The notes below the pieces were generated by a model. That model searched no databases, was not told the DNA's origin, and worked only from the letters and a program-made list of their open reading frames with translations. From contig JAERTG010000175.1 in assembly GCA_016845065.1 (NCBI GenBank), forward strand, positions 62,001-126,000: 64,000 nt of DNA. The letters are read 5' to 3'. The DNA comes from Fidelibacterota bacterium (GTDB taxonomy: Bacteria > Fidelibacterota > UBA8477 > JABMPR01). Shown in pieces: positions 4,957 through 42,453 of the stretch. How positions within the stretch are numbered: the stretch's first letter is position 1; every line of letters starts with the position of its first letter. The position numbers and the translations under genes were made by a program.

Positions 4957-5612
4957 TTCGCCCAAGCGAGCCTACAGAGAAAGGTTTCTGGAGGAGACCC
5001 CGATGTAATGAAGAACATGAATCCAGTGCGTCCTAGCTGACCAGGAGCCTAGTCTTTTAGCACGCTTCGTCATTAACTGAGAAAAGCATGTAATATTCTT
5101 AAATGAAAGTTTTTTAATGTTGAGAATTTATGAAACTAATATGATCATGATTTGCTAAAGTATTGATAATTGTGCAGTAACAAAAGGCCGTAATTCAGTA
5201 CCCACAAGTGAATGAGAACTGTTCGTAATTACTACTATATTGCATATAGACCACCCTTCCATATATTTCAATGTTCAAAAGGTTTCTTCTCAATCAGGGA
5301 GTGTTTTACTAAGGCACATATTGTGTTTTGACCGTTGTGGTGGCATTCTTTTTGCGCCATTCTACGACACGTCTTACCGTCCTGAATTTGATTTTGATAG
5401 ATTTTTCTCAAGTTTGAGCATGATGCCCACGACCATAAGCAGTCTAAACCATTGATTGCTCCCCAGTTGTTGGGTTTTTTTTAAAGGAAATACTTGCTGA
5501 TGGAGACTATTCCTATCATCAAGATTTTCCAATATTTAGGAATGCTTAGGAGTAGATTCTCAATCGTAAGAATGAATGAAATTAACAATAGAAGTTAACA
5601 TGGAGGAAAGAA
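4957..5612. other. Intergenic region upstream of the cytochrome gene
   Basis: About 650 bases without a supported gene. A 71-codon frame at 5240-5455 has no ribosome-binding site or recognisable protein character and is not called. A weak CCCA/TGGG hairpin followed by eight T at about 5462-5483 could be a terminator or part of a leader. The promoter of the cytochrome gene should lie here but no clear -35/-10 pair is visible. Confidence 0.4.
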
Positions 5613-6668
5613 ATGAGTAAAAAAATCAACCTGTTTGCTATCCTGGTATTGTCCTTGATGGTGATGTTTACAGTTAGTTGTGAAGGTCCTGCCGGTGCAG
5701 ATGGTATTGCTGGTGCTGATGGTGCCGATGGTGCTGATGGTGCTGATGGTGTCGATGCTAACTCAAATTGTCTGGATTGTCACTCCGCGGATCGATGGGA
5801 TGGTATTGAAGGCTTGTATGCCATTTCAGGCCATGCAAATCCTGGTCGTGGTCTAACCTATGCTGGTGCTCTTGATGGATGCGCCCGTTGTCATTCAGGC
5901 CAAGGGTTCACAGATTTTGTTGCTGGCTATACAAGAACAGATATTGATGAAGCATCAGCCTTGTCTTGTGAGTCCTGCCACGGAAATCATGGCGTTCTTG
6001 AAGGTGATGTCGACGCACCCATGGCAACCACTGACCCAGTGGTTCTTATAGTTGATCCAACAATGTCAATTGATCTTGCTAGTACATCCAACCTTTGTGG
6101 TACCTGTCACAACTCTAGAAGGAATGGCGACTACTATGCGACTGTCGATTCAGTAGAGATCGACGGTGTCATGACTGAAGTTGGAGATGGCATGATGGGA
6201 ATCAGCAGTACCCATGCTGGTCCTCACTACAGTGCTCAGCTGAATACCATGAAGGGTTTAGGCGGCTACGGTGCTAGCTCAGAAAGTACACACGCAACTG
6301 TTGGTTGTGTTAGTTGTCACATGGGCGAATCCACTGATACACAAGGTGGACATACATTTGATCCAAATTTGGCTAACTGTACAGTTGCCTGTCACTCAAG
6401 TGTCACAGATATCGAGGCTTTCGCAACTGAAAAGCATGATGCTACCAAAGCTCGGATGGACGCTATTGCAGATGCTTTGGTTACAGCTGGAGCTCTGTCA
6501 GTAGATGATGATGGACATTACAGTCCTGCAGTTAGCATCGTCACTGACGATGTTTTCGAAGCATTCTGGAACTATAGAGTCATGTACCAGGATCACAGCT
6601 ATGGTGTACATAACCCAGGTTATTACAACACCATGCTGACTACAGCTGAGGCTAAACTCGGTCTGTAA
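5613..6668 (+). CDS. Multiheme c-type cytochrome lipoprotein with collagen-like linker
   Basis: A 351-residue predicted lipoprotein: a hydrophobic signal followed by FTVSC, with the lipid-modified Cys at residue 23. Residues 25-46 are Gly-x-Asp-Gly/Gly-Ala-Asp repeats, a collagen-like stalk. Five canonical CxxCH heme sites follow (CLDCH at 53-57, then CARCH, CESCH, CGTCH, CVSCH), plus a sixth non-canonical C-x3-CH site (CTVACH). Extra His residues (SGH, STHAGPHYS, GGH) could serve as distal ligands. The protein should sit in the outer membrane or periplasm and pass electrons; its partner is unknown because it forms a single-gene unit with its own terminator at 6691. GGAGG precedes the ATG by eight bases. 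The heme count (five or six) depends on whether the CX3CH site is filled. Confidence 0.85.
   Translation: MSKKINLFAILVLSLMVMFTVSCEGPAGADGIAGADGADGADGADGVDANSNCLDCHSADRWDGIEGLYAISGHANPGRGLTYAGALDGCARCHSGQGFTDFVAGYTRTDIDEASALSCESCHGNHGVLEGDVDAPMATTDPVVLIVDPTMSIDLASTSNLCGTCHNSRRNGDYYATVDSVEIDGVMTEVGDGMMGISSTHAGPHYSAQLNTMKGLGGYGASSESTHATVGCVSCHMGESTDTQGGHTFDPNLANCTVACHSSVTDIEAFATEKHDATKARMDAIADALVTAGALSVDDDGHYSPAVSIVTDDVFEAFWNYRVMYQDHSYGVHNPGYYNTMLTTAEAKLGL
5712..5756 (+). repeat. Tandem 9-bp repeat encoding the Gly-Ala-Asp stalk
   Basis: Five consecutive 9-base units of the form GGTGCTGAT (with GCC and GTC variants) inside the cytochrome gene encode the collagen-like Gly-Ala-Asp stalk. Such tandem units can change in number by slippage in frame, altering stalk length without disrupting the protein. 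Confidence 0.85.
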
Positions 6669-6690
6669 TCTTCATTAGAAATGATTGACA

Positions 6691-6725
6691 AAAGCGGCCA
6701 CCCGTTTGGGTGGCCGCTTTTTTTG
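6691..6725 (+). terminator. Strong rho-independent terminator after the cytochrome gene
   Basis: A perfect 13-bp stem (6691-6703 with 6708-6720) with a GTTT loop, preceded by A residues and followed by a T run, so it could work in both directions. It lies 23 bases after the cytochrome stop codon. Confidence 0.95.
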
Positions 6726-7125: not shown

Positions 7126-7641
7126 TCAGGTAAAGATGATCGAAGCTCCAGCGGAACGCTCGTAAAACTCACCGACAGTCAACACGGATGAGACTTGATC
7201 ACATAGATCATCCTGGGTCAGCTTGAACATGTCCATGGCCAGTTTACAGGCAAAAACTTCACCACCTGCATCTGTAAACATCTCCAGAAATTCTGGTACA
7301 GTAGGTATATCAAGATTTTCCATTTCATTCTTCATCATCCAGGTGGCAAAATTTGAAACGCCTGGAATTGCGCCCATAATCGTAGGGAAGGGCATGGTGA
7401 TAGGCATTTTCAACATGGGCATAGCCATATTCATTGCAGGATTACCCACAGTTGCGACTTTTAGTGAGTTCTGGGTTTTTTTGATCAAAGCACCCAGTCC
7501 AAAGAAGGTGAAAAAGATAGAGGCTTCCATACCTTCCATTCGAGCGCCATTTCCCATGACGAGGGCTGGATAGACATCTACCAGAGACCCTTTGGAAACG
7601 ATCAGGGATACTTTTTTGATTGGTTCAGGTTGTTCACTCAT
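7126..7641 (-). CDS. DsrE-superfamily (COG2210-type) sulfur-relay protein
   Basis: A 171-residue cytoplasmic protein of the DsrE/F-like superfamily. I start at ATG 7641 because AAGGAG lies seven bases upstream. The N-terminal beta strand (KKVSLIVSKGSL), the MEASIFFTFFGL stretch and the FACKLAMDMF motif match the larger DsrE-like proteins annotated as peroxiredoxin-family or DsrE2-like. The Cys of FACKLAM is the usual active-site Cys for persulfide carriage. A second Cys (DDLCDQ) follows twelve residues later. It is the last gene of a four-gene unit after the SQR, DUF1641 and DsrC-like genes, so it probably accepts or stores sulfane sulfur released by sulfide oxidation. The exact partner is not shown by the sequence. 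Confidence 0.8.
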   Translation of the reverse strand: MSEQPEPIKKVSLIVSKGSLVDVYPALVMGNGARMEGMEASIFFTFFGLGALIKKTQNSLKVATVGNPAMNMAMPMLKMPITMPFPTIMGAIPGVSNFATWMMKNEMENLDIPTVPEFLEMFTDAGGEVFACKLAMDMFKLTQDDLCDQVSSVLTVGEFYERSAGASIIFT

Positions 7642-7652
7642 CTCGATACTCC

Positions 7653-7970
7653 TTAGATGCAACCCTGGGGTTTACCCAGACCAGCAATTTTTGCAGCTTT
7701 CTTAGCTGGACCACCAGGAAAGAGAGCATAAAGTTCCTTGGTAGGTACAACATTAAGCTTATTCATTTTTCGAATTGAAGGGGCCGTGCCATTTTCTTCA
7801 AATTCCTTACGCATAAAGTTGAGTACATCGATATGACGATCTGTTAAGGCCTCAATTCCCTCTTCCTTGGCGATGGCGGCTGCCAGATCGAGGTTCCATA
7901 CTGTGTGGTCAGTGAGAAATCCCTCTGCATCCACATCGACTGAGATTCCAGCAAGTTCTTTTGTTGTCAT
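7653..7970 (-). CDS. DsrC/TusE-family sulfur carrier with a single C-terminal Cys
   Basis: A 105-residue protein. The start at ATG 7970 (MTTKELAG) has GGAG just upstream, and the size equals that of DsrC/TusE proteins. Family signatures are VDVDAEGFL near the N-terminus, and EEGIEALTDRHIDVLNFMR and NGTAPSIRKM in the middle. The C-terminal arm ends KPQGCI with the essential penultimate Cys. The second redox Cys of dissimilatory DsrC, eleven residues earlier, is Ala here (KKAAKIAG instead of the usual CKIAG). It therefore cannot form the intramolecular trisulfide of dissimilatory sulfite reduction and is more like TusE or a simple persulfide carrier. It lies one base after the DUF1641 gene and eleven before the DsrE-like gene. 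Confidence 0.88.
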   Translation of the reverse strand: MTTKELAGISVDVDAEGFLTDHTVWNLDLAAAIAKEEGIEALTDRHIDVLNFMRKEFEENGTAPSIRKMNKLNVVPTKELYALFPGGPAKKAAKIAGLGKPQGCI

Positions 7971-7971
7971 T

Positions 7972-8661
7972 TTATTTTTCTCCTTTAATAGATTTAGATT
8001 CTTGTTGGGCAAAATTTTTCATAAATGCGATTATAAACCCTAAGCCCCGTTTCATCTCAGGCGTGTTCAACTCTCTCATCGCTTTCCAGATGGAGACTTC
8101 CTGAATATCATCCACATTCATTTTGTCAAATACGGTAATACCATTTTTGATGGCTCCCATCATTTGGGGTTGAGTGATTGATTTAAGCGTTTCAAGGATG
8201 GGTACAATATTATCGGCTAATAACTTGACGTCTTCACCTGAAAAATGCTCAACAACATTGTCACTGATATGCACAGCCTCGCTTGCAAATTCGAAGTATT
8301 TTGCCCGATCCAACTTATCCAGACTATCCAGAGTATCTGCGAACAGTTCTTTTCCTATGGGTTTGAAATCTTCAAAGAAATCAAGGGCACTTTCAAGCTT
8401 GCCTATCACTTCGGTGATGTTGTTGGTATTTCTCAATATGAGTTTAATGAGATGGAGGAAGTCCCCAGTCCTGACAAAAGGAGCAATATCCTCAAATTCT
8501 TCAATGGCTCCTGCGAAGAGATCCTTTGCTACTCGAGTTAGATCCTCCTTTAGATCTTCCATCTCCTGTCGCTGCTGTCTGACCAGAGCCAGTTCAGCTG
8601 TGATTCCATCCAGAGTAGTCTGGATTTCTGCCAGCTGACCAGAAATATCGCTGCCGCTCAT
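7972..8661 (-). CDS. DUF1641 protein
   Basis: A 229-residue, mostly helical soluble protein. Residues 5-45 form an amphipathic, coiled-coil-like stretch (LAEIQTTLDGITAELALVRQQ). The middle and C-terminal parts contain the DUF1641 features FFEDFKPIGKE and a late block resembling AMRELNTPEMKRGLGFIIAFMK. DUF1641 proteins are repeatedly found next to sulfide:quinone oxidoreductase-like flavoproteins. Their function is unknown; a role as an SQR partner or scaffold is inference from neighbourhood. The gene starts one base after the SQR stop codon and ends one base before the DsrC-like start, so all three should be co-translated. Confidence 0.8.
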   Translation of the reverse strand: MSGSDISGQLAEIQTTLDGITAELALVRQQRQEMEDLKEDLTRVAKDLFAGAIEEFEDIAPFVRTGDFLHLIKLILRNTNNITEVIGKLESALDFFEDFKPIGKELFADTLDSLDKLDRAKYFEFASEAVHISDNVVEHFSGEDVKLLADNIVPILETLKSITQPQMMGAIKNGITVFDKMNVDDIQEVSIWKAMRELNTPEMKRGLGFIIAFMKNFAQQESKSIKGEK

Positions 8662-8662
8662 G

Positions 8663-9892
8663 TCAGGCTCGCTTTCCAGCCATTAACATATGGGATTCGA
8701 TGGGTAGCTCAGCCCCCTTCAATAACAAATTCCAGTACATCCAGCGGAACATCATTTTACCATAGTGATTCATGCGGGTTTCTTCTAGCAGTGAGAATGG
8801 TCCAACACCAGGAAGTGGGAATTTGCCAGGGAGCGGCTCAGTATCATAGTTAAAGTCAATCAGGATACCTTTGCCAAAACCTGACTCAATGTAGCAGTTC
8901 GCATGACCGTCAAATTTACCCTTGAGAGGTTTCCCATCGATATAGCTCAGGAGGTTGTCTGTCAGGATATCTGCCTGGAAGTGGGCTACTGAACCTGCTT
9001 TTGAACTGGGCAGGTTGGTGGCATCGCCAATTACAAAAATATTGTCGTTGGCTTGTGATTGCAGAGTGAATTTATCAGTAGGGATAAAGTTTAGCTCATC
9101 TCCAAGACCTGAGCGTGCAATAAGATCATCACCCATGTTGGTGGGGATGGTTACCAGGAGATCATAGTCAATACTGGTTTCATCCCAGGAGACTAGCTTG
9201 TTGTTTTCCCAGTCCACGCGACCCGTGCTAAACTCAGGTGTAAGACTGATATTTTTCTTATTGAGAAAGTCGCCAAAGACTTTGGACGCTTTGGGCTTTG
9301 TGAAGGCACCTGGCAAGGGTGTGACAAATTCAATATCGACTTTATCACGAATGCCTTGCTCAGTAAACCACCAATCAGCCAGGAAAACAAATTCCAGAGG
9401 AGCAACTGGACATTTAATGGGCATCTCAACTATATTGAGAACCATTTTGCCGCCTTCCCAGTATTTCAGGAATTGTTGGAGAGCTACCGCGCCTTCAACA
9501 GTATAGAAATCGAAAATATTCTTGTGCCAGCCGCCATCAGCCATGCCATCAGTCTCAGCAGGATTGATTTTGGTACCCGTCGCTACTAATAAAATGTCAT
9601 ATGAGAGCACTTTACCACCATCTAGAATCACCTGGTTTTTACCAGCATCGACAACATCTATTTTGGAGAATATTACATTGACTCCGGGAGGAAAAAAATC
9701 TCGCTTGGGTTTAATGACATCACGTCGGTTATAAATACCGAAGGGAATAAACAAGAATCCAGGCTGGTAATAATGGGTTTCATATTGATCAACGATGGTG
9801 ATATCCCATTCTTCCTTATCCAGAACAGCTTCCATTTTATTAAGCATCATCGTGCCGGCAGTGCCAGCCCCAAGGATTAATAGTTTCTTCAT
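8663..9892 (-). CDS. sqr: Sulfide:quinone oxidoreductase-like FAD protein
   Basis: A 409-residue flavoprotein of the SQR/type II NADH dehydrogenase superfamily. I start at ATG 9892 (MKKLLILGAGTAGT), where the FAD-binding GxGxxG motif begins. YYQPGFLFIPFG and the FVIGDATNLPSSKAGSVAHFQA block near the C-terminus are typical of SQRs. Of the three Cys that can take part in SQR catalysis, two have visible counterparts (IKCPVAP in the middle and HANCYIESG near the C-terminus); the first is absent, as in several SQR types. The late amphipathic helices (FRWMYWNLLLKG) should contact the membrane. It would oxidise sulfide to sulfane sulfur and reduce quinone. It heads the four-gene sulfur cassette. Confidence 0.85.
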   Translation of the reverse strand: MKKLLILGAGTAGTMMLNKMEAVLDKEEWDITIVDQYETHYYQPGFLFIPFGIYNRRDVIKPKRDFFPPGVNVIFSKIDVVDAGKNQVILDGGKVLSYDILLVATGTKINPAETDGMADGGWHKNIFDFYTVEGAVALQQFLKYWEGGKMVLNIVEMPIKCPVAPLEFVFLADWWFTEQGIRDKVDIEFVTPLPGAFTKPKASKVFGDFLNKKNISLTPEFSTGRVDWENNKLVSWDETSIDYDLLVTIPTNMGDDLIARSGLGDELNFIPTDKFTLQSQANDNIFVIGDATNLPSSKAGSVAHFQADILTDNLLSYIDGKPLKGKFDGHANCYIESGFGKGILIDFNYDTEPLPGKFPLPGVGPFSLLEETRMNHYGKMMFRWMYWNLLLKGAELPIESHMLMAGKRA

Positions 9893-9983
9893 ATTTCTCG
9901 CTCCAGTTTGGTTGACGGTGAACACTTCACCTGAAGTGCTATAAAACAGTCTTGCTGCTTCAGTTCTATCTGTTTTGTTACAT

Positions 9984-10048
9984 GTTTGGTATGATTAAAA
10001 TTCAGTATCATATAATGCTGAATTATATTAACAAATCTTATACCAAAC
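9984..10048 (-). promoter_or_regulatory. Nested inverted repeats upstream of the SQR operon
   Basis: An outer 9-bp inverted repeat (GTTTGGTAT at 9984-9992 with ATACCAAAC at 10040-10048) encloses an inner 6-bp pair (ATTCAG at 10000-10005 with CTGAAT at 10018-10023). It lies 92-156 bases upstream of the SQR start in very AT-rich DNA. This could be a regulator-binding region of the sulfur cassette; no known consensus is recognised. Confidence 0.4.
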
Positions 10049-10388
10049 TGTTGCATGAACCATAATGGTTGCCAGGTCTAAAGCGATGAAATCAATAGAT
10101 TTGCATTGTCATATCCATGCCAATATCACCTAGATAATCATTGTGATTGGGACAGAAAAAAACATACATATATGACAAACAGGTAATTGTATAACTTCAA
10201 TAATAATAATAGAATAGAATTTGATTGGAAGGATTAACCCATATCAAGGTTTCGAGGTGAGTCAGGAGTGATTGCTTTTCGCAAGAGTTGGTTTTGGCAG
10301 GTGGCTCAGTCTCGATAAACGAGCCACATAAGATCAAGATTAAAAGTCTTTCATCTTTTATGAGTAACTCGCTTTGAGAAGTTGTCAC
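10049..10388. other. Intergenic region between the aminopropyltransferase-like gene and the SQR operon
   Basis: No gene is supported. An imperfect inverted repeat, GTGGCTC (10301-10307) with GAGCCAC (10321-10327), lies 62 bases downstream of the stop of the gene that ends at 10389. It lacks a U tract on the minus strand, so it is at best a rho-assisted or weak terminator. Confidence 0.4.
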
Positions 10389-12683
10389 CTATTCCTGTGA
10401 GTTTTGCCACGTGAGCAATCCCGCTGCTGCGTAACTCACCAGACCAACTCCAAGACCCACGGAATAGCCCCAGCTTATCACAATGAGAATGGTTACCGTT
10501 GATCCCAATACCGAAGCTGCACCATTGACAGCGAAACTCCAATCTACCAGCGGTCCGACGTGCCTGACACCCTTGGGAAACGGCATACCCATGAAAAACC
10601 CAAGTGGACTTACCAGAATCATGGTGGCTGCAATACGTGCAACTTGTCCAAAATCACCAAACACCAAAACAAAATATTTGAATAATACAATATCGATGAA
10701 TAACCATGATATGATTGCAAAGAAAACAATTTTGGACTCAAAGGTTGATGAGTACCGACTTCCAATCCCCGAACTGATCAACAAGGTCATGAGAATTGCA
10801 GCAATACTGTACATTGATGGACCTACTAATAGTGTGAACTGCTGCATTAGAATCAACTCAACACACATGTATGAAAACCCGATGATAGCAAAGTAAGCGA
10901 AGTGATTGAGTGACAGTCCAGGACCTTTTTTCATGTAGGGAATGATGGTGATGGGAAATATGAGCACCAACACCACCAGAATGATAATAACAACGATCAT
11001 TTTGGTAAGTGGGAACCCCCTGAACTCATATGGTAGCAATCTGGCATCTTTATCAAAACTCAGGTTTTTCCACAAACCCATTTGAGCGGCGAAGGGTCGG
11101 TTATCATTATTGGGAGATATATCTATGGCCAAGGTATCAGCAACTTTCTCCCAACCCTCATCTACAATTTTCTGATAGATGTTATCCTGAAGCGAATCAA
11201 CTGCTGGATATACCAGATGGACATCGTCATAGTTTTCACTGGTGATATCTCGCAGGGCGATCTGCAGGAAATCGTTGTTTAAAAGCTTTTTTGACATCAA
11301 TAGAACTTTCCGTCGCATCTGTGGCAAATTGTATACAGCAATATGGTTTTTTGGCTGCTGAACACCCAGTTGTTCAAGTGCAATAATCGATTCACTCACT
11401 AGTCTGGGCATATAAAATTGATGCTCCATCATGAGAAATCCTGAATCTGATAGAGCAGTCCAGTAGTCCTGGAATGCTTCAGTCGTAAACAAGTAGTTCT
11501 CTGCCAGAGCAAAGGATCCAGATGCCAGTGCAGCAAAGGTGTTGGAGCTCAGCGAATAGATCACATCAAAACGAGAATCATGGCGTCGGATAAAGGCTCG
11601 GGCATCTTCAGAGACTACTGTCACCCTTGGGTCATCATAAAAATGACTCGTATACTCTGGCAACGTGATCAGATCAGTTGAAAGCGTGTCAGTATATGAT
11701 TTTAGGTATCCCCCTGGATCCCCGTCAGTCAGCATCTTATTAAACCAGGGGTTCACTTCTACAGCATAAACCTCTGCGGCACCCTCAGCCAATGCCTGAA
11801 TAACATCTGCGCCACCACCAGCCCCAAGCGATAGAAATCTGCAGGATTCGAACTGACGAATCAGATCACCTGCTGGAATTCCCCACAGGTCTTCTGATCC
11901 GCTGTCTGGTAAACTGAAGTCACCATCGAATCTATATACGGGTGTATTGGCTGCATTGTCGATTACCATGCCTCTGGCTTCATCACCAGGATAGGCAAAC
12001 ATCTTGATTTGGGCCATGGCATCCCAATGCTGGTATATACCAGGTAATCGCTCAGGTTTGGTCGACTTCAGCAGGTCGTGCGCATTGTAGCTGGCACCCA
12101 CTGCTAAAAGAATTAGCCCAAGAGGTATTAACTTCGACATTCTGTAACTATTCAACAGTGCGGCGATAAAAATTGGTATGCTAATGAGAAAGGCAGCCAC
12201 GGGCGTACTGAATACATTCATTGAAAAAATGGCCCCAATCACTCCCAGTCCTGCACCTAGAAGATCAGCCATATATAAATTAGAGATATTGATGTGAAAG
12301 CGCTTGAAAAGGATGGCCAGTGCAATTCCACAGAAATAAAAACTGGAACTGAGAATGAGGATAACAAGGATAAGTTTCCCCAGCATCATCAGACTACCTG
12401 TGAGAGCAGAAAAACTCATTCCAAGACGATAAACTAGAGGAGGACCAATTAGAATCATGGTCCCACCCAACAAGAGACTGTTTTTCATACTCTTCATCGT
12501 ATCCACCCTGGGGATCAAGCGGAGGGTTAAGGCTCCCATTCCGAGACCAAGAATGGCTAGAGATAGCACCAGAAACGCAAAGGTATAGAAGAACTCTGCT
12601 GCAAGAATGCGGGTCCAGATCAATTCAAGTGATAATAGTGAAAACGACAGAAGTGCAATAGTGTAAGATTGTTTACGATTCAT
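10389..12683 (-). CDS. Membrane-embedded spermidine-synthase-like methyltransferase-fold protein
   Basis: A 764-residue polytopic protein; ATG 12683 (MNRKQSY) is preferred to the in-frame start six codons earlier. The N-terminal part (about residues 5-205) holds around six to eight membrane segments, a central soluble domain follows, and the C-terminal part (about 555-760) has five or six more. The soluble domain contains a SAM/dcSAM-binding motif I (FLSLGAGGGADVIQAL, near residue 285), the acidic strand end VYAVEVNP, and SEDARAFI plus FDVIYSLSS as in spermidine synthases. Such fused proteins are annotated as spermidine synthase or fused MFS/spermidine synthase; whether they make polyamines is unproven. 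No other polyamine gene lies nearby. Confidence 0.7.
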   Translation of the reverse strand: MNRKQSYTIALLSFSLLSLELIWTRILAAEFFYTFAFLVLSLAILGLGMGALTLRLIPRVDTMKSMKNSLLLGGTMILIGPPLVYRLGMSFSALTGSLMMLGKLILVILILSSSFYFCGIALAILFKRFHINISNLYMADLLGAGLGVIGAIFSMNVFSTPVAAFLISIPIFIAALLNSYRMSKLIPLGLILLAVGASYNAHDLLKSTKPERLPGIYQHWDAMAQIKMFAYPGDEARGMVIDNAANTPVYRFDGDFSLPDSGSEDLWGIPAGDLIRQFESCRFLSLGAGGGADVIQALAEGAAEVYAVEVNPWFNKMLTDGDPGGYLKSYTDTLSTDLITLPEYTSHFYDDPRVTVVSEDARAFIRRHDSRFDVIYSLSSNTFAALASGSFALAENYLFTTEAFQDYWTALSDSGFLMMEHQFYMPRLVSESIIALEQLGVQQPKNHIAVYNLPQMRRKVLLMSKKLLNNDFLQIALRDITSENYDDVHLVYPAVDSLQDNIYQKIVDEGWEKVADTLAIDISPNNDNRPFAAQMGLWKNLSFDKDARLLPYEFRGFPLTKMIVVIIILVVLVLIFPITIIPYMKKGPGLSLNHFAYFAIIGFSYMCVELILMQQFTLLVGPSMYSIAAILMTLLISSGIGSRYSSTFESKIVFFAIISWLFIDIVLFKYFVLVFGDFGQVARIAATMILVSPLGFFMGMPFPKGVRHVGPLVDWSFAVNGAASVLGSTVTILIVISWGYSVGLGVGLVSYAAAGLLTWQNSQE

Positions 12684-26119: not shown

Positions 26120-27265
26120 ATGGGAAAACTATTAACATCCACTGAATCCTTAGAGATGTCCTTCTCAAGCGAGTTGGAGGCACAAGGAGTAAGCCGTCGG
26201 AGCTTCCTTAAATTTTGTACTGCCATTACAGCAGCAATGGGTCTACCTGCCACCATGGTGGCCAGGGTTGCAGATGCCATTACCAGCCCAACAAGAACGC
26301 CTGTCATTTGGTTGCACTTCCAAGAATGTACCGGTTGTACCGAATCACTCCTCAGAACCACACATCCCACTGTGGAAGAATTGGTTCTGGATATGATATC
26401 CCTGGATTACTCAGAGACACTCTGTGCCGCAGCAGGCCACCAGGTCGAAAAATCCCTCATTGATTCAGCCAAACTGAATGAAGGGAAGTACATCCTGGTA
26501 GTTGAGGGTTCGATTCCTGTAAAACAAGATGGTATTTATTGTAAGATCGCTGATAGAACTGCACTTGATATCTTGAATGACTACGGTTCAAGAGCCGCCG
26601 CCATCGTGGCCATAGGGTCCTGTGCATCCTGGGGAGGAGTTCAATCATCCAGTCCCAATCCAACAGGAGCCACTGGAGTTCATGATATCATTAAAGACAA
26701 ACCAGTTATTAATCTACCTGGTTGTCCTGCCAGTCCATACAATCTACTCTCCACAGTATTGTATTATCTAACACTAGGAAAACTGCCTCAGCTGGATAGC
26801 AAGGCTAGACCAAAATTTGCTTATGGTCGTCTTATTCATGAGCATTGCGAACGTCGTCCTCATTTTGATGCTGGCCGCTTTGCTCTGGAATTTGGGGATG
26901 ATGGTCATCGCGAAGGATATTGTCTCTACAAACTGGGCTGTAAGGGTCCAGAAACGTATAACAACTGCTCTTCCATCCTTTTTGGTGATGTGGGGTCAGG
27001 TGCCTGGCCTGTTGGTACAGGTCATCCCTGTTTTGGTTGCTCAGAAGAAGGTGTGGGTTTTACAAAATACATTCATGAACAGTCCGATGTGTTTACTGAT
27101 TCACCGCCTGCTTCATACGCACAAATCTCTGGCGATAAAGCTGGTGGTATCAGCGTTGCCGGAGCTGCTGTCGCAGGAGCTGTTGGTGGTGTCATCGTCG
27201 GCGCCAGCGCAGTCGCTGCCAAGAAGATGAAGGCTGAAGAAACTGCTTCGGAATCTGACGCATAA
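26120..27265 (+). CDS. hybO: [NiFe] hydrogenase small subunit (Hyb type)
   Basis: A 381-residue Fe-S electron-transfer subunit, exported folded by Tat (SRRSFLKF, residues 25-32). Cys ligands of the proximal cluster are ECTGC (Cys70, Cys73), GSCASWGG and LPGCPASP. The HEHCERR, CLYKLGCKGP, CFGC and FGCSEEGVGF blocks bind the medial and distal clusters. The proximal motif lacks the two extra Cys of oxygen-tolerant group 1d enzymes, so a standard enzyme is expected. A C-terminal Ala/Gly-rich membrane helix (GISVAGAAVAGAVGGVIVGA) anchors it at the periplasmic face. It starts the hybOABCD-like operon; GAAAGGG lies seven bases before the ATG. Confidence 0.95.
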   Translation: MGKLLTSTESLEMSFSSELEAQGVSRRSFLKFCTAITAAMGLPATMVARVADAITSPTRTPVIWLHFQECTGCTESLLRTTHPTVEELVLDMISLDYSETLCAAAGHQVEKSLIDSAKLNEGKYILVVEGSIPVKQDGIYCKIADRTALDILNDYGSRAAAIVAIGSCASWGGVQSSSPNPTGATGVHDIIKDKPVINLPGCPASPYNLLSTVLYYLTLGKLPQLDSKARPKFAYGRLIHEHCERRPHFDAGRFALEFGDDGHREGYCLYKLGCKGPETYNNCSSILFGDVGSGAWPVGTGHPCFGCSEEGVGFTKYIHEQSDVFTDSPPASYAQISGDKAGGISVAGAAVAGAVGGVIVGASAVAAKKMKAEETASESDA

Positions 27266-27275
27266 GGAGTTTATG

Positions 27276-28247
27276 ATGAACCTTGAACGTAGAGATTTTT
27301 TAAAGGTTCTTTCAGTTGGCGCGTTGACTGCGGGTAATGTCACAAGTGTTTTTGCCGGGATCAGAAAGACCTTGTCGGCAGATGCTGTTGGTATTCTGTA
27401 TGATGGAACCATATGTATCGGTTGCAAGGCCTGTGAGGCAGCTTGTAAGCAGTATAATGATATGCCACCTGAAAGTGCAAATTTGGAAAAAGCCACAGGA
27501 GTAGATGGAATCTGGGACGAATCCTATGATCTATCGGAAAAAACTCTGAATAAAATCAAACTCTATGAACACGGTGATGCTTCAACTCGCAACCGCGAGG
27601 AGAACGGCTTTGCATTCGTGAAGAAAGCCTGTATGCATTGTGTTGATCCAGATTGTGTTTCTGCCTGTCCTGTGACAGCCCTGACCAAGAACAGCACCAC
27701 TGGTATAGTAGAGTACGATAAGGATGCCTGCATAGGTTGTCGCTATTGCATGGTAGCCTGTCCATACAATGTGCCGAAATTTGAGTATGCTAAGGCTATC
27801 CCTGAAATCACTAAATGTGAAATGTGCAACCATCGTCAGGCTGAGGGAGATATCCCAGCTTGTTGCGAGTTTTGCCCAACGGGTGCCTCACTTTTTGGTA
27901 ATGTAACTGACCTATTGGAAGAAGCTCGAAAACGAGTCAAGCTGGTGGCAGGGAGTACCTATGAATATCCCATGCGAAGTCTTGATGAAGGTGATCTGAC
28001 TCCAAAGACAGTAGCACCATACATCAACTATATATATGGTGAAAAAGAGGGTGGTGGTACTCAGTACCTATTACTCTCAGCGATACCATTTACGAAATTG
28101 GGTCTACCTGAGCTTTCTGCTACATCTTCTGCCTCTAAGTCAGAAGGTATTCAGCATGGCATTTATAAAGGTATGGTCGCACCAATTGCTCTCCTGGGCG
28201 GATTGCTATATGGTGCATATCAAACAACCAAGAATTCAGAAGGATAG
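27276..28247 (+). CDS. hybA: HybA-like periplasmic ferredoxin subunit
   Basis: A 323-residue Tat-exported protein (ERRDFLKVL) with four 4Fe-4S motifs: CIGCKACEAAC, CMHCVDPDCVSACP, CIGCRYCMVACP, and CEMCNHR ... CCEFCP. I prefer ATG 27276, six bases after AAGGAG, over the adjacent ATG 27273. A C-terminal hydrophobic helix (MVAPIALLGGLLYGAYQ) provides a membrane anchor, as in HybA. It carries electrons from the hydrogenase small subunit to the quinone-reducing HybB. A paralogue lies at 41531-42403 on the other strand. Confidence 0.95.
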   Translation: MNLERRDFLKVLSVGALTAGNVTSVFAGIRKTLSADAVGILYDGTICIGCKACEAACKQYNDMPPESANLEKATGVDGIWDESYDLSEKTLNKIKLYEHGDASTRNREENGFAFVKKACMHCVDPDCVSACPVTALTKNSTTGIVEYDKDACIGCRYCMVACPYNVPKFEYAKAIPEITKCEMCNHRQAEGDIPACCEFCPTGASLFGNVTDLLEEARKRVKLVAGSTYEYPMRSLDEGDLTPKTVAPYINYIYGEKEGGGTQYLLLSAIPFTKLGLPELSATSSASKSEGIQHGIYKGMVAPIALLGGLLYGAYQTTKNSEG

Positions 28248-28256
28248 GAGCTGATT

Positions 28257-29396
28257 ATGCACGAAAAACAAGCTCTCGGTGGCAAACTGCTCACCAAGCC
28301 ATTCTGGGTTTTACTTGGATTGGCTATGATAGCCGGATTACTCCTGATCAAACGATTTCTATTTGGAATTGGTGCAGTCACCAATCTCTCAGATGGTTAT
28401 CCCTGGGGTATCTGGATTGTATACGATGTTCTGGTTGGAACTGCCCTGGGTTGTGGTGGATACTCCATCGCGCTCCTGGTATACATCTTTAATAAGGGTG
28501 AATACCATCCGCTAGTTCGATCCGCACTGATGACCAGTGCTTTTGGTTATACGCTGGCAGGTGTGTCCATCTTTATCGATATCGGTCGCTACTGGCAGAT
28601 GTATAATGTGTTTCTACCCTGGCACATCAATGTCAACTCAATCATGTTCGAAGTAGCTGCTTGTATAGGGGCCTACGTATTTGTTTTATGGATTGAGTTT
28701 TCACCCACATTCCTGGAACATCGGAAATCTTTGGAAACAAAAAGAAAGCTCAACAAGTTCCTCTTCTTTTTTATTGCATTGGGAGTGCTACTCCCCACAA
28801 TGCATCAATCCAGTCTTGGATCGCTCATGATCATAGCCGGTGAGAAACTATCTCCGATCTGGCAAACTGGCTGGTTACCACTGCTCTTCTTGCTGACTGC
28901 CATCACCATGGGTTATGCGGTTGTGATTTTCGAATCCCTCTTTTCTGCAGTCGCATTAAAACGACCCCTGGATGAAACACCAATACTCGGGAAGTTAAGT
29001 ACTATGATGATTCCACTATTGGTGCTATTTCTCTTACTTCGCTTTGGCGATCTCATCTGGCGTGGTCAATTAGGGAATATCTTCAATGACGGCATGCTGG
29101 GAGCATTCTTTGTTGTTGAGAATGTATTATTTCTGATTCCCGTCATCATGTTGGCTTCAGCTAAAAATCGCATGAAGGCAACCACGCTCTTCTGGTCTGC
29201 AGGATCAATGATACTGGCTGGAGCACTCTACCGATTTGATACTTTCCTGGTCGCATTCAATCCCGGTGTTGGATATCACTACTTTCCATCGGCCTCAGAG
29301 ATATTGATTACTGTGGGTATCATCTCAATTGAGATTATGGCCTATCTGATATTTGTTAAAAAACTCCCGGTCCTACCGGCAATCAAACATTCATAA
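28257..29396 (+). CDS. hybB: HybB-like NrfD-family quinone-interacting membrane subunit
   Basis: A 379-residue integral membrane protein with about ten hydrophobic segments. Features of HybB/NrfD proteins are GYPWGIWIVYDVLVGTALGCGGY near the first periplasmic loop, LPWHINVNSIMFEVAACIGAYVFVLWIEFSP, and PTMHQSSLGSLMI. It exchanges electrons with menaquinone/ubiquinone and may couple this to proton movement. Length is close to E. coli HybB (392). It starts nine bases after hybA. A paralogue of similar design is encoded at 40309-41538 on the opposite strand. Confidence 0.95.
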   Translation: MHEKQALGGKLLTKPFWVLLGLAMIAGLLLIKRFLFGIGAVTNLSDGYPWGIWIVYDVLVGTALGCGGYSIALLVYIFNKGEYHPLVRSALMTSAFGYTLAGVSIFIDIGRYWQMYNVFLPWHINVNSIMFEVAACIGAYVFVLWIEFSPTFLEHRKSLETKRKLNKFLFFFIALGVLLPTMHQSSLGSLMIIAGEKLSPIWQTGWLPLLFLLTAITMGYAVVIFESLFSAVALKRPLDETPILGKLSTMMIPLLVLFLLLRFGDLIWRGQLGNIFNDGMLGAFFVVENVLFLIPVIMLASAKNRMKATTLFWSAGSMILAGALYRFDTFLVAFNPGVGYHYFPSASEILITVGIISIEIMAYLIFVKKLPVLPAIKHS

Positions 29397-29420
29397 ACTG
29401 AAGATATGAGGATTATATAA

Positions 29421-31127
29421 ATGAGTAAAAGAATCGTAGTTGATCCAGTCACTCGAATAGAGGGACATCTAAGAATTGATTGTGATATCAAAGATGGCAA
29501 GGTTGCAAAAGCCTGGTCATCAGGCCAGATGTGGCGCGGAATTGAAACCATCTTAAAAGGTCGTGATCCCCGGGATGCGTGGGTTTTCACCCAGAGGATA
29601 TGTGGCGTTTGTACAACGGTCCATGCTATTGCATCTGTTCGAACTGTAGAAAATGCACTCGATATGGAAATTCCCGTGAATGCCCAGTATATCAGAAACA
29701 TGATCATCGCTGCTCACGGAATCCATGACCACATCGTGCATTTCTATCATCTCTCTGCGCTGGATTGGGTCGATGTTGTATCTGCGCTTTCTGCAGATCC
29801 CAAAGCAGCTTCAAAATTGGCTCAAAGTCTTTCTGACCACCCCAATAATGGCTGGCAGGAATACAAAGCCGTTCAGGAAAAGCTGAAGACATTCGTAGGT
29901 TCAGGACAATTAGGTATTTTTGCCAATGGTTACTGGGGTCACCCTGCCATGAAATTGCCACCAGAAGTCAATCTCATAGCAGCTGCCCATTATCTTGAAG
30001 CCTTTGAAATCCAGAGAAAAGCAAACCAGATCACCACAATCCTGGGATCAAAAACACCTCACGTCCAGAATATGGCAGTAGGTGGTGTTTCAAACCCAAT
30101 TAATCCGGATAGTCAGGCTGCTCTTAATATGGAACGTCTCCAGATGGTCAAGAATCTCATGAATGAGCTGAAATCCTTTATATACAATGCCTATATCGTA
30201 GATGTTGCCGTTGTGGCATCATTTTACCAGGACTGGTTGGGTTATGGTTCTGGTGTCATGGATTATCTATCTGTTCCTGATTTTCCCACTGATACCAAGG
30301 GAACACAGTTTGGAACACCCGGTGGATATATACCCGGTGGTGATATTAGTAAACTCAAACCAATCACATCATTTCAGGACATGTATTTCCGTGATGGTGT
30401 AAAGGAAAGTGTGAAACACTCCTGGTATGAAGGTGAGAGTAATCTCCACCCATATAAGGGTGAAACTGAACCTCATTATACTGATTTTGAAGATGATGGA
30501 AAATACAGTTGGGTGAAAGCACCAACCTTCCTAGGTAAACCAGCTCAGGTTGGACCCCTTGCTAATGTGTTGAACATGTTCGCCCAGGGTCATGAGACAA
30601 CGCAGAAAGTCGCTGGAGTAGCCTTTGCCAAGATCAAAGCCATCACTAAATCCAAATCTGATATACCAATCAGCGTTCTACATTCAACACTGGGTCGTCA
30701 TGCTGCCCGTGCAATTAGAACGGCTGTGCTCTTCGAGGAACTCGAGAAAAACTACAATCTGCTTATTAACAATATTGCCGGTGGTGACATGACAACCTTC
30801 AACCCACCTGTCTTTCCTAAGGGTGAGCAACAAGGTTTTGGTTTCCATGAAGCCCCACGCGGTGTTCTTTCACATTGGATTGTTATAAAAAATGGTAAAA
30901 TCGAGAATTATCAGGCTGTGGTTCCTTCGACCTGGAATGCAGCACCACGGAATGATGACGATGCAGTAGGTCCTTATGAGTCTTCACTCATGGGTAATCC
31001 CATTGCAGATGAAGAAAAACCACTTGAGGTTCTACGGACGATTCACTCCTTCGATCCTTGTCTGGCATGTGCCATACACTTGCATGACAATAAACGTAAG
31101 AATATCTCGAAAGTCCATGTCCTCTAG
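29421..31127 (+). CDS. hybC: [NiFe] hydrogenase large subunit (Hyb type)
   Basis: A 568-residue catalytic subunit holding the NiFe(CN)2CO centre. The N-terminal metal motif is RICGVC (Cys61, Cys64) and the C-terminal one is DPCLACAIH (Cys547, Cys550, His553). The 15 residues after His553 form the extension removed by the maturation protease once nickel is loaded. VVDPVTRIEGHLRI at the start and LSHWIVIKNGKIENYQAVVPSTWNAAPR are typical of group 1 uptake hydrogenases. Partner genes hybO, hybA and hybB precede it in E. coli hyb-2 order, and the protease hybD overlaps its 3' end. It should oxidise H2 in the periplasm. Confidence 0.97.
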   Translation: MSKRIVVDPVTRIEGHLRIDCDIKDGKVAKAWSSGQMWRGIETILKGRDPRDAWVFTQRICGVCTTVHAIASVRTVENALDMEIPVNAQYIRNMIIAAHGIHDHIVHFYHLSALDWVDVVSALSADPKAASKLAQSLSDHPNNGWQEYKAVQEKLKTFVGSGQLGIFANGYWGHPAMKLPPEVNLIAAAHYLEAFEIQRKANQITTILGSKTPHVQNMAVGGVSNPINPDSQAALNMERLQMVKNLMNELKSFIYNAYIVDVAVVASFYQDWLGYGSGVMDYLSVPDFPTDTKGTQFGTPGGYIPGGDISKLKPITSFQDMYFRDGVKESVKHSWYEGESNLHPYKGETEPHYTDFEDDGKYSWVKAPTFLGKPAQVGPLANVLNMFAQGHETTQKVAGVAFAKIKAITKSKSDIPISVLHSTLGRHAARAIRTAVLFEELEKNYNLLINNIAGGDMTTFNPPVFPKGEQQGFGFHEAPRGVLSHWIVIKNGKIENYQAVVPSTWNAAPRNDDDAVGPYESSLMGNPIADEEKPLEVLRTIHSFDPCLACAIHLHDNKRKNISKVHVL

Positions 31128-35722: not shown

Positions 35723-37063
35723 CTAGCTGCCCTTATTGATCTTGTATTTTTTAATTTTGCTATATAAGGTTACACGGTCAACGCCCAATGCCTTTGCTGC
35801 CTGGGATATGTTCCAATCGTATTTCTTAAGAATATCTTCAATATGATGGTGCTCCATATCCTGAATGGATTCCCAGGATGGCTTCTCAATGTTGTCCTGA
35901 AAAGGCAGATCTTTTAGCTGAACCGTATCACCGCTACCGATAACGATTGCTCGCTCAATTAGATTCTCTAACTCCCGGACATTACCTGGGAATGCATAAT
36001 TCTGCAGGGCTTTGGTAGCCCTTTTACCAATATGGCGTGTTCCCTTATTCATTTGATCAGCATATAGTTTGACAAAATGCTCAGACAGCAATTTGATATC
36101 TTCTACACGTTCACGCAGGGGAGGGATATCGATTGAAAAAACATTAAGCCTATAGTATAAATCATCCCTGAACTCACCATTTTTAACCATGGTCGCCAGG
36201 TCACGGTTTGTGGCACATATTACTCGGAAATCAGATGAAAATTCACGATTACCACCAACTCTGGCAAATTTCTTAGTTTCCAGGACCCTTAGAATTTCAA
36301 TCTGCATTTTCATGGAGATCGTAGATATTTCATCCAGAAAGAGGGTGGCGCCGTCTGCCATTTCAAATTTCCCCTTTCGAGCGTACTGAGCACCAGTGAA
36401 TGCACCTCTTTCATGACCAAAGAGTTCGCTTTCCATAAGATTTTCAGCTATGGCTCCACAATGAACAGTAACCATGGGGAAGAAACGCCTGGATGAGTTC
36501 ATGTGAATCGCCTTGGCAATGAGTTCTTTTCCAGTACCGCTATCACCATTAATTATGACAGTCGAATCAGTTTCTGCAACAACTCTGACTTGTTCCAGCA
36601 CGTTTAGAATGCCTTCACTTTCACCAATGATATCCTCAACATTCACCAGGCTTTTAATTCTGTCCTGGAGGGATAGATTTTCCTGACTGAGTTGAATGGA
36701 CTTGCTGGCATTACGAATGATGTGGGTGACGGCATCAGGGTCGAAGGGTTTGCAGACATAGTCGTAAGCGCCATCCTTTAATGCCTGAACTGCGGAATCG
36801 ACAGAGGCAAAGGCTGTCATGATGATGACGATGGTGTCCTCATTGATGGTCTTTATCCTGCGGTTGAGTTCAAGACCATCCATGCCAGGAAGTTTTATAT
36901 CAATCAGAATGATGTGAAAATGATATGCTTCAATTTTTTTTAAGGCAACTTTGGCGTCTTCCGCTGTGTCGACGGTGTATCCGTCCTCGATAAACCAGTT
37001 GGACAATGAATCACGTACCGAGAGTTCGTCATCAACTACTAATATTGAAAGATTATTATCCAT
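35723..37063 (-). CDS. NtrC-family sigma-54-dependent response regulator
   Basis: A 446-residue activator with three domains. The receiver (residues 1-120) has the phospho-acceptor Asp55 in IDIKLPGMDG and acidic VVDDE. The AAA+ domain has Walker A GDSGTGKELI, GAFTGA for sigma-54 contact, GATLFLDEI (Walker B) and the sensor arginines. A Fis-type helix-turn-helix ends the protein (ISQAAKALGVDRVTLYSKIKKY). It overlaps the upstream kinase gene by eight bases, so they form a coupled pair. It likely acts at a sigma-54 promoter; a candidate lies upstream of the first gene of this cluster at 43198-43213. Confidence 0.95.
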   Translation of the reverse strand: MDNNLSILVVDDELSVRDSLSNWFIEDGYTVDTAEDAKVALKKIEAYHFHIILIDIKLPGMDGLELNRRIKTINEDTIVIIMTAFASVDSAVQALKDGAYDYVCKPFDPDAVTHIIRNASKSIQLSQENLSLQDRIKSLVNVEDIIGESEGILNVLEQVRVVAETDSTVIINGDSGTGKELIAKAIHMNSSRRFFPMVTVHCGAIAENLMESELFGHERGAFTGAQYARKGKFEMADGATLFLDEISTISMKMQIEILRVLETKKFARVGGNREFSSDFRVICATNRDLATMVKNGEFRDDLYYRLNVFSIDIPPLRERVEDIKLLSEHFVKLYADQMNKGTRHIGKRATKALQNYAFPGNVRELENLIERAIVIGSGDTVQLKDLPFQDNIEKPSWESIQDMEHHHIEDILKKYDWNISQAAKALGVDRVTLYSKIKKYKINKGS

Positions 37064-38729
37064 CGTCAGCCCTCCCAGAGCTTATTTCAAAGGTGAATTT
37101 TAGCGAAGTACCAGCCCCTGGAGCAGAATTCACAGCAACTTTTGCATTATGCTGTTCCAAAATTCCATATGTGACTGCCAGTCCCAACCCAATACCTGAC
37201 ATTTCTTTTTTACTTGAGAAGAACGGTTCAAAAATATGCTCCTGATCTGCTTCAGATATCCCAATGCCATTATCTTTGATCTCAACGGTGATGTGATCCA
37301 TATCTGGATTGTAGCTACGATAGGTCACCTGGCTGTCAGGTCCTGGACTGACAGCTTCCAGGGCATTTGTTAATACAGCCAGGCAAGCCTGGATGATTTG
37401 GTTGCCATTGCCCCTGATTTGATCTCTTGTTGCGGAGAAGTCAGTTGCCAGGGTCACATCTGAAATTTGAAAGCTGTGCTGGATGAGTTGTTCCGTTTCA
37501 GCCAGGACTTCATTCACGTTTACCTCATCAAATTTTTGGCTACCCTCTCGGGAAAAATTAAGAAGACCCTTGACTATGTTTCCACATCTAGTGGTTTCAG
37601 ATTGAATCATATCGAGATGCTTTAGGACAGCTTCTTTTTTCTCATCTGTCAAATCAGGGTTCCTCAGAATTCGAGAAACCAGCTTTGCATAGGTGAGAAC
37701 TCCAGCTAGTGGATTGTTTATTTCATGAGCAACTGAAGATGAAAGCCGACCCAGCGAGGCCAGACGTTCAATTTGATAAATCTCGTTTTGAGTTCTTGCG
37801 ATATCCTCAGATTTGGTTCGTACTTTATTCTCAAGTTCATTGGACCATTGATGCAGTTCTCGACTGCTCTCATTAATTGATTCCAACATGGTGTTTAATG
37901 CCAGACCGACCTCGTGAATATCGATCAAATCATTCGGTTGAACATTTACACGGACTGACAAGTTTCCTGTGGAAACAGCCCTGCTGGCATCCACAATACG
38001 TTTGAGTGGTTTGTGAATTCGACGCTTTACGAAAAAGAGCAAGGATCCCATGACCAGCACCAGAAATAGCAGGATCAGTCCAAAATACTCATAGAGAAGT
38101 TGGCTCAGCGTGCGATCTAGTTCATCAAGAGGTAATTCAATTTCTAAAAAACCTAGAACTTCAGAATCCAGATGGGTCTGATGACATCCTGAGGACCTGC
38201 ACTCGGGAGTGGACATGATAGGAGAAAGGACCACCATGTTGCGACCTTCCTCTGCGTCCCTATTGTAGATACAAGTCCCAGGCATACCCCATTGACCGCG
38301 ATCGACTTCAGTATGACAGTGAGCGCAAGGAGTCATTGGTGCCTGGTATTCACCTGATTGCGAGGCTCCAGGTGAAAAATGCCTGATCTCTCCTTCATCG
38401 TTGTAAATACGAATGGCTTTTACACCTGGAACATCTTGAACTTTTGTGATAGCAATAGTGAGTTCGGCATGATCTTTACGGATCATGCTGGATTTGATGC
38501 TCAGGTCTACCATAGCAGACATTCTTTTCCCGCATCGCGTTAAAACATTTTCAAGATAGTTGTTAGATATGGAAAAGATTAACCAAGCTAAAAAAATGAA
38601 AAGTAGCAATGACATGGAGAGTAACATCGCTACCAGATGACTGTACAGAGATTTGGTCTTGAAGAGGTCTCGCCATGCTTCTTTCCAGTGAGATCGGGTC
38701 TCTTCTTTTTGCGCTGTCTCGTGTTCCAT
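37056..38729 (-). CDS. Membrane histidine kinase with heme-type periplasmic sensor
   Basis: A 557-residue NtrB-like kinase. Membrane segments at about 31-55 and 212-235 flank a periplasmic domain of about 155 residues containing a canonical c-type heme site, CAHCH (135-139), and a CX4CH site (177-183). A HAMP domain (about 236-290), a coiled-coil, the HisKA site SVAHEINNPLAG and HATPase boxes (ALEAV, DNGIGI, FSSK, GIGLGLAV) follow. The periplasmic domain should bind one or two c-type hemes and sense redox state or a gas. It sits directly upstream of its cognate regulator and behind a gene set for quinone-linked electron transfer, which suggests that the kinase monitors that pathway. Confidence 0.88.
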   Translation of the reverse strand: MEHETAQKEETRSHWKEAWRDLFKTKSLYSHLVAMLLSMSLLLFIFLAWLIFSISNNYLENVLTRCGKRMSAMVDLSIKSSMIRKDHAELTIAITKVQDVPGVKAIRIYNDEGEIRHFSPGASQSGEYQAPMTPCAHCHTEVDRGQWGMPGTCIYNRDAEEGRNMVVLSPIMSTPECRSSGCHQTHLDSEVLGFLEIELPLDELDRTLSQLLYEYFGLILLFLVLVMGSLLFFVKRRIHKPLKRIVDASRAVSTGNLSVRVNVQPNDLIDIHEVGLALNTMLESINESSRELHQWSNELENKVRTKSEDIARTQNEIYQIERLASLGRLSSSVAHEINNPLAGVLTYAKLVSRILRNPDLTDEKKEAVLKHLDMIQSETTRCGNIVKGLLNFSREGSQKFDEVNVNEVLAETEQLIQHSFQISDVTLATDFSATRDQIRGNGNQIIQACLAVLTNALEAVSPGPDSQVTYRSYNPDMDHITVEIKDNGIGISEADQEHIFEPFFSSKKEMSGIGLGLAVTYGILEQHNAKVAVNSAPGAGTSLKFTFEISSGRADDG

Positions 38730-39600: not shown

Positions 39601-40293
39601 TCACTTCGTTGCGTCGATGAACTCAGATTGAAACTCTTCCCAGATTTCAGGAGACAACGATTCCAATACTCTATCTTCGATTTCACCACCTTCCTGGAGA
39701 AGGACAGGTTGAGCAGATAGATCATATTTTCTCTCTGCAAATGCCAGGACATCACGCAATCTGGATTGCTCTTGTTGGATCCATTGCTGAGCTTTCTCAC
39801 CAATTATGAGCTTGGTTTTCTCCACATCCCAGCGCTTGGGTGAAACATCAAACAGCCAATTCTCGGTAAAATCATTGCTTGTACGTTTGCTGAATTTATG
39901 CAACGCCTTCTTATTGATTGATTTTAGGGTTCCACTCACAGGAGAATAGACTTTCAGACTTTTACCCTCAGCCATAAGGGTAGCGAGGTGATCCCCACGA
40001 TGAACCTCTTCACCGCTCATCTTGTGAAGCTGTAAGGATACAGGACCAGTAAGAGCAGTCAGAAAGTCATCAATCCCAACTTGCACTTGACCAGCGGATT
40101 TGAGATAAGCCCAGGTATGGGTTTTATCAAAAAAGACCCCTCTGGGTAGTCGGACGTTTGCCAATGAAAAGAGTGGACCTTCAACTTCTTTGAGGAAGGA
40201 GTAAAAGGGGATGAAAACAAGGAAGAAGCTGATGATGAGTAGATATTCAATTCCTTTGGTTGCGAAAATATCGGTATAAAAAAGATTGGGCAT
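39601..40293 (-). CDS. Membrane-anchored GcvH-like protein (second of three)
   Basis: A 230-residue protein with an N-terminal membrane helix (about residues 15-35). A glycine-cleavage H-like domain follows: GVFFDKTHTWAYLKSAGQVQVGIDDFLTALTGP, then EGKSLKVYSPVSGTLKSINK. In true GcvH the lipoyl lysine lies eight residues before the Pro of the xAPxSG motif; here the nearest lysine is one residue out of register in a shortened hairpin. The C-terminal half holds helices (AQQWIQQEQSRLRDVLAFA) and ends acidic. The gene lies 15 bases after the NrfD-like gene. It may scaffold the ferredoxin/NrfD complex. Confidence 0.65.
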   Translation of the reverse strand: MPNLFYTDIFATKGIEYLLIISFFLVFIPFYSFLKEVEGPLFSLANVRLPRGVFFDKTHTWAYLKSAGQVQVGIDDFLTALTGPVSLQLHKMSGEEVHRGDHLATLMAEGKSLKVYSPVSGTLKSINKKALHKFSKRTSNDFTENWLFDVSPKRWDVEKTKLIIGEKAQQWIQQEQSRLRDVLAFAERKYDLSAQPVLLQEGGEIEDRVLESLSPEIWEEFQSEFIDATK

Positions 40294-40308
40294 GATTCAG
40301 TTACCTTA

Positions 40309-42403: not shown

Positions 42404-42453
42404 AGGGTATTGTCCTTACAATTTCTAGAATCAGTTACGCGTATGTAGGATCA

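Follow-up and report, generated by a model that had tools for sequence, protein, structure and literature searches.

The closest described systems for the protein analyzed here are OcwA, the nonaheme surface reductase of Thermincola potens (PDB entry 6i5b), the protein of PDB entry 6qvm, which we take to be OmhA of Carboxydothermus ferrireducens, and the pentaheme nitrite reductase NrfA (PF02335). In OcwA, a His-His pair (380/381) is positioned above the open face of the five-coordinate heme 5 (PMC6703420). Heme sites with expanded Cys-Cys spacing have also been described: MmcA of Methanosarcina acetivorans carries heme at CX3CH and CX4CH peptides, as indicated by a +615-Da shift in mass spectrometry (PMC11024163), and the ImcH proteins of Geobacter conserve a CX3CH site (PMC6295460). 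The gene described here comes from an uncultured marine bacterium and is located in a 64,000-nucleotide stretch of DNA (referred to below as the window). Its product, a lipoprotein with six heme sites, represents a novel form within the OcwA/NrfA superfamily. CX3CH sites as such are already known; the interesting part, and the most useful point of the analysis, is the occurrence of two, three, or four spacer residues at one orthologous heme of a single family, followed in importance by a candidate open-site heme (heme 2).

Gene, product, and genomic context

The open reading frame (Table 1) encodes an exported protein whose N-terminal sequence, MSKKINLFAILVLSLMVMFTVSC, ends in a lipobox with a Cys residue that is kept across the lipoprotein homologs, as is characteristic of bacterial lipoproteins, and whose five CxxCH motifs and single CTVACH motif are those of a multiheme c-type cytochrome. 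This is the lipid-anchored cytochrome recognized in an earlier sequence-only reading, and the analysis confirms that it is a real, well-conserved hexaheme lipoprotein, for which the relatives discussed below suggest a function. The strong downstream terminator and a 723-base gap on the 5′ side indicate that the gene is probably transcribed alone. In the AlphaFold2 model, the C-terminal helices have pLDDT values of mostly 75 to 95, whereas residues 20 to 170 are poorly modeled (mean pLDDT, 58); the model is too weak to give the geometry of heme 6.

Table 1. Features of the hexaheme lipoprotein gene and its product (positions in the window)
Feature	Position	Strand	Basis
Hexaheme lipoprotein gene, 351 aa	5613..6668	+	ORF (ATG at 5613, stop codon ending at 6668); 58 homologs; GGAGG at 5602-5606
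Lipoprotein signal sequence up to lipid-acceptor Cys23 (FTVSC)	5613..5681	+	Sequence; Cys conserved in lipoprotein homologs
Gly-X-Y tether, eight triplets, residues 25-48	5685..5756	+	Uninterrupted register in all lipoprotein homologs
9-base tandem repeat (GGTGCTGAT) coding for most of the tether	5694..5751	+	TRF period 9, 6.4 copies, score 81
Heme site 1, CLDCH, residues 53-57	5769..5783	+	C, C, H invariant
Heme site 2, CARCH, residues 90-94	5880..5894	+	Invariant; presumed NrfA heme 1/OcwA heme 5 position
Heme site 3, CESCH, residues 119-123, then invariant His126	5967..5981	+	Invariant; aligns with NrfA heme 2
Heme site 4, CGTCH, residues 162-166, then invariant Arg169	6096..6110	+	Invariant; aligns with NrfA heme 3
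GPHY, residues 203-206 (GPH[H/Y] motif), candidate distal pocket of heme 2	6219..6230	+	His205 invariant; aligns with OcwA/OmhA His-His
Heme site 5, CVSCH-M, residues 232-236	6306..6320	+	Invariant; aligns with NrfA heme 4
Heme site 6, CTVACH, residues 256-261, CX3CH variant	6378..6395	+	C, C, H invariant; aligns with NrfA heme 5/OcwA heme 9
C-terminal helices, residues 267-348, D-x-S-x-G-V-H333-N-P motif	6411..6656	+	AlphaFold2; NrfA-like helix bundle by profile; His333 invariant
Rho-independent terminator, 14-bp stem and T tract	6690..6721	+	

The sequences searched were those of the class and the phylum, GTDB contigs, and the Ulvibacterium family, and they yielded 58 sequences for alignment. 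These come from Neomarinimicrobiota and Flavobacteriaceae and include two domains excised from larger nonaheme proteins (L084 and L085, which have no Gly-X-Y stalk and were trimmed to the shared domain). At each of the six heme sites, both Cys residues and the His (18 residues in all) are invariant in the 58 homologs, as are His126, Arg169, His205, His247, and His333; His74 is found in 57 of them. Another His residue (His227 in the window protein) precedes the heme 5 Cys by 5 to 9 residues in all 39 homologs of the first set, its position shifting by a few residues among homologs. Position 206 is occupied by His in 46 of the 58 sequences and by Tyr in 12, the window protein having Tyr.

In the window's genome, terminators on both sides set the hexaheme gene apart from its neighbors, and the distance to the closest NrfD genes exceeds 20 kb. 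A gene for a DUF5916 protein is found upstream, and genes for DsrE, DsrC, DUF1641, and SQR-like proteins (positions 7129 to 9892, minus strand) are convergent to the cytochrome gene; this sulfur cluster also adjoins the cytochrome gene in three relatives (L025, L026, and L029). In all 8 Flavobacteriaceae loci, the cytochrome gene heads a conserved operon that encodes, in addition to the hexaheme lipoprotein, a lipoprotein with one CxxCH, a DUF5777 beta-barrel, a Fer4_11 FeS protein, NrfD, a protein without a Pfam match, a cytochrome c, and GlutR (HemA). In Neomarinimicrobiota loci L027 and L030, FeS and NrfD genes are located 6 to 7 kb downstream of the hexaheme lipoprotein gene, in a region that also encodes a sensor kinase, a regulator, and a cytochrome with eight CxxCH motifs. 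The presence of such NrfC/NrfD-like genes near the hexaheme gene in the relatives suggests a quinol-linked electron supply. The sensor kinase downstream of the hexaheme lipoprotein gene in L030 (positions 9493 to 11238) has a CAECH motif in a Cache-like domain. Elsewhere in the window, hydrogenase-like genes at 26120 to 31124 (plus strand) encode a small subunit, an FeS protein, NrfD, and a large subunit with the VDPVTRIEGH motif, and the segment from 39604 to 43164 (minus strand) carries an NrfD and FeS gene pair (40312 to 42403) between genes for two lipoyl/GcvH-like-looking proteins (39604 to 40293 and 42457 to 43164).

The sixth heme site and the Gly-X-Y tether

The spacing at site 6 is CX2CH in 44 of the aligned homologs, CX3CH in 9, and CX4CH in 5, the two longer forms being found, among these 58 sequences, only in Neomarinimicrobiota. 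On a 39-sequence tree built without the signal, tether, and site-6 columns, the three states require at least 7 changes of spacing. In one genome (G004), paralogs encoded a few kilobases apart have CX2CH and CX4CH, respectively; two adjoining hexaheme lipoprotein paralogs are seen at L028:5179-9065, with CX4CH in one and CX2CH in the other. Distant nonaheme relatives in Ignavibacteria have CX2CH at every site, so this spacing is probably the ancestral one at site 6, and the CX3CH form may have been derived from it by a one-codon insertion. A chance CX3CH was ruled out by conservation, and a sequencing or assembly artifact at CTVACH was rejected because six genomes from the genus to which the window belongs share this in-frame spacing.

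Variability of the Cys and His residues of CTVACH was specifically looked for, and Cys256, Cys260, and His261 proved invariant in all 58 homologs. The earlier suggestion that the CX3CH site may hold a sixth heme is well supported, since 44 homologs have a regular CxxCH where the window protein has CTVACH, and MmcA provides a mass-spectrometric precedent (PMC11024163); judging from these comparisons, a sixth heme at CTVACH is very likely. The window's genome encodes CcmE, and searches of that genome did not find ResB, which points to System I; this Ccm machinery would then tolerate the one-codon insertion at site 6. No report of spacing variation at one heme was found in the open-access papers searched. 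An orthologous heme that comes with CX2CH, CX3CH, or CX4CH makes the effect of spacing on attachment, redox potential, and electron transfer separable from that of the fold, and the family represents a natural experiment on the flexibility of heme attachment. Unusual spacing was also observed in other proteins: a multiheme protein at L070:1-1269, encoded in the neighborhood, has CAASCH (CX3CH) and ends in a tail of the C-terminal sorting type (SLGQNYPNPFNP), and a sensor histidine kinase in the window (37059 to 38729, minus strand), adjoined by a response regulator gene (35726 to 37063), has periplasmic CAHCH and CRSSGCH (CX4CH) motifs and may be a diheme redox sensor.

The tether triplets of the window protein are, in order, GPA GAD GIA GAD GAD GAD GAD GVD, with GAD, encoded by GGTGCNGAT units, accounting for five of the eight. 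The collagen-like stalk described in the sequence-only reading is therefore real, but it comprises 24 residues rather than 22 and starts two residues past the lipid Cys rather than directly after it; its encoding by 9-base tandem repeats was reproduced by TRF (Table 1). The length variation, anticipated in that reading between strains, is seen in comparisons between species, as steps of one triplet. As also suggested there, the stalk may lift the heme domain away from the membrane. Absence of the stalk from relatives was also looked for, and all 56 lipoprotein homologs inspected have it, with 5 to 14 triplets: the register is unbroken in all 37 lipoprotein homologs of the first set (6 to 14 triplets), and 19 further Flavobacteriaceae homologs have 5 to 10 triplets. 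In the first set, the tether begins just past the lipid Cys, or slightly farther on in the case of Flavobacteriaceae, and ends no more than 5 residues before heme 1. A chance origin was rejected, as eight in-register triplets did not arise once when these 28 residues were shuffled 100,000 times. All four Gly codons are in use (GGT, 140; GGA, 100; GGC, 47; GGG, 23) while the residues at X and Y differ, so that the Gly of each triplet seems to be maintained by selection and not merely copied by repeat slippage. Despite the perfect register, the Collagen domain (PF01391) is matched with only 16.5 bits (E = 0.0072) against a cut-off of 27.2. An unrelated Ulvibacterium lipoprotein (L100:1471) has the same CEGPAGPPG Gly-X-Y tether (CEGPAGPPGLDGFDGADGAQGPPGP), which indicates that the tether is modular and suggests a spacer or surface-display module of general use. 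The shared-tether search of the window's own genome found no second CEGP[A/D/E]G-type lipoprotein, and no collagen-like multiheme lipoprotein was reported in the open-access papers searched.

Short, Asp-rich, proline-poor Gly-X-Y sequences without hydroxyproline form weak triple helices. It therefore seems unlikely that the Gly-X-Y stretch is a true collagen triple helix that makes the cytochrome a trimer on a rigid stalk: an unbroken register in every lipoprotein homolog, kept while X, Y, length, and Gly codons vary, is what selected Gly residues would produce, but the tether has just 5 to 14 triplets, few prolines, and Asp at 164 of 310 Y positions, the same tether is present on an unrelated lipoprotein, and OcwA is a dimer (PMC6703420). 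More likely, in our view, the tether is a short spacer or surface-display segment that is acidic and extended. A bolder reading, speculative and rather improbable, is that the family is a natural allelic series of CX2CH, CX3CH, and CX4CH with repeated switches, that System I tolerates spacing freely here, that the loop may tune redox potential or partner contact, and that the protein is displayed at the surface on a true collagen-like, possibly trimeric tether. A protein that matures as a pentaheme cytochrome, with CTVACH devoid of covalent heme or holding heme by a single thioether, is very improbable; CX3CH is indeed non-canonical, but its C, C, and H residues are invariant throughout the 58 homologs, 44 orthologs have CxxCH at that site, +615 Da was recorded on the CX3CH and CX4CH peptides of MmcA (PMC11024163) and CX3CH is conserved in the ImcH proteins (PMC6295460).

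Superfamily placement and proposed function

Searches with the family profile gave 6qvm (1.9e-14) and OcwA 6i5b (3.1e-14) as the best structures, with NrfA structures ranging from 2e-9 to 3e-4 (1.9e-9 for 6v0a). Significant profile similarity, matching heme order, and the C-terminal helix bundle place the family in the OcwA/NrfA superfamily. In the profile alignments, hemes 3 to 6 of the family pair with NrfA hemes 2 to 5, and hemes 5 and 6 pair with OcwA hemes 8 and 9; heme 2 would accordingly occupy the position of NrfA heme 1 and OcwA heme 5. Foldseek with the AlphaFold model gave weak matches, OcwA ranking first, and Pfam and NCBIfam gave weak or cut-off-level matches only. The score for NrfA (PF02335) was 24.1 bits, at its cut-off, and that for the DmsE-type decahemes (TIGR03508) was 33.7 bits against a 192-bit cut-off, the protein having six heme sites rather than ten. 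The family also departs from NrfA nitrite reductases in having CxxCH rather than CxxCK at the heme 2 site and the invariant Arg169 at the position of the NrfA catalytic Tyr, which we take to be three residues past the heme 4 His of the family.

In the profile alignments, the counterpart of GPH[H/Y]GPQ is GVHH-PQ in 6qvm and an HHPH in OcwA, the 6qvm match being clear and the OcwA match lying at a low-confidence alignment edge. The OcwA HHPH, at chain positions 351-352, corresponds to HH 380/381 only if the chain lacks some 29 residues of the signal; in that case, heme 2 would be the open-site heme, and the five other conserved His residues would serve the five other hemes. OcwA has a Met near the position of the His upstream of heme 5, and its heme 9 is His-Met ligated, which would fit a role of that His as distal ligand to heme 6. 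Five hemes are probably six-coordinate, with His74, His126, His227, His247, and His333 as distal ligands, and the distal side of heme 2, under GPH[H/Y], is probably open or only weakly occupied.

The protein could instead be a plain electron conduit with six bis-His hemes and no substrate site, the GPH[H/Y] His being the sixth distal ligand. Six candidate distal His residues (74, 126, 205, about 227, 247, and 333) equal the hemes in number, and both the Arg at the NrfA catalytic Tyr position and the absence of a CxxCK heme fit such a protein. However, His205 aligns with the His-His pair over the five-coordinate heme of OcwA, and the remaining five His residues exactly match the five non-active hemes; the plain conduit is accordingly a possible but rather doubtful alternative. 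Improbable, on present evidence, is an NrfA-type reductase of a soluble substrate (nitrite, hydroxylamine, or a sulfur compound) that takes no part in extracellular electron transfer. The homology to NrfA and OcwA, the slow reduction of nitrite by OcwA and its activity on hydroxylamine (PMC6703420), and the sulfur cluster facing the gene in the window and in three relatives speak for a soluble substrate. Against it stand the invariant Arg and the missing CxxCK catalytic heme, a PF02335 match that only reaches the cut-off, and the location of the sulfur cluster, which is on the opposite strand and is not beside the gene in other relatives.

The favored reading, held with modest confidence, is that of a Gly-X-Y-tethered hexaheme lipoprotein of the OcwA/NrfA superfamily, probably in the outer membrane, that acts as a quinol-fed electron conduit or terminal reductase. 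The lipid anchor and the tether of variable length would hold the cytochrome in place, probably in the outer membrane, with six c-type hemes, the last in CX3CH. Electrons would pass from a quinol-linked NrfC/NrfD-type partner to the hexaheme lipoprotein and from there to an acceptor, either at the outer membrane or farther out. Points that count against this reading are the isolated position of the gene in its own genome, the poor model of residues 20 to 170, the Tyr in place of the second pocket His, and the low-confidence edge at which the OcwA pocket match lies. If so, the family suggests quinol-linked surface electron transfer in groups that are seldom credited with it.

Compared with the known systems, the window protein shares with OcwA and OmhA the C-terminal heme core, the helix bundle, the CxxCHM heme, and the His-His and GVHN motifs, but it has six hemes instead of nine or eleven, a lipid anchor on a Gly-X-Y tether, and CX3CH rather than CxxCH at the last heme site. 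NrfA hemes 2 to 5 have their counterparts in the family, whereas the extra N-terminal heme and the lipoprotein nature, like the differences at the catalytic heme and Tyr noted above, set the window protein apart from NrfA. MmcA and ImcH are likewise multiheme cytochromes with a CX3CH site; in them the odd site belongs to other architectures, and the available portions of these reports do not describe spacing variation at one orthologous heme. In the nonaheme proteins of Ignavibacteria and Neomarinimicrobiota (L042, L043, L045, L084, and L085), the last six hemes form the same domain as in the window protein, preceded by three more N-terminal hemes; all their sites are CX2CH, and a C-terminal sorting domain replaces the lipid anchor. 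These sorting tails suggest that, in related bacteria, the heme domain operates extracellularly, and the family connects the OcwA-type extracellular reductases of Gram-positive bacteria with the lipid-anchored forms in Neomarinimicrobiota and Flavobacteriaceae.
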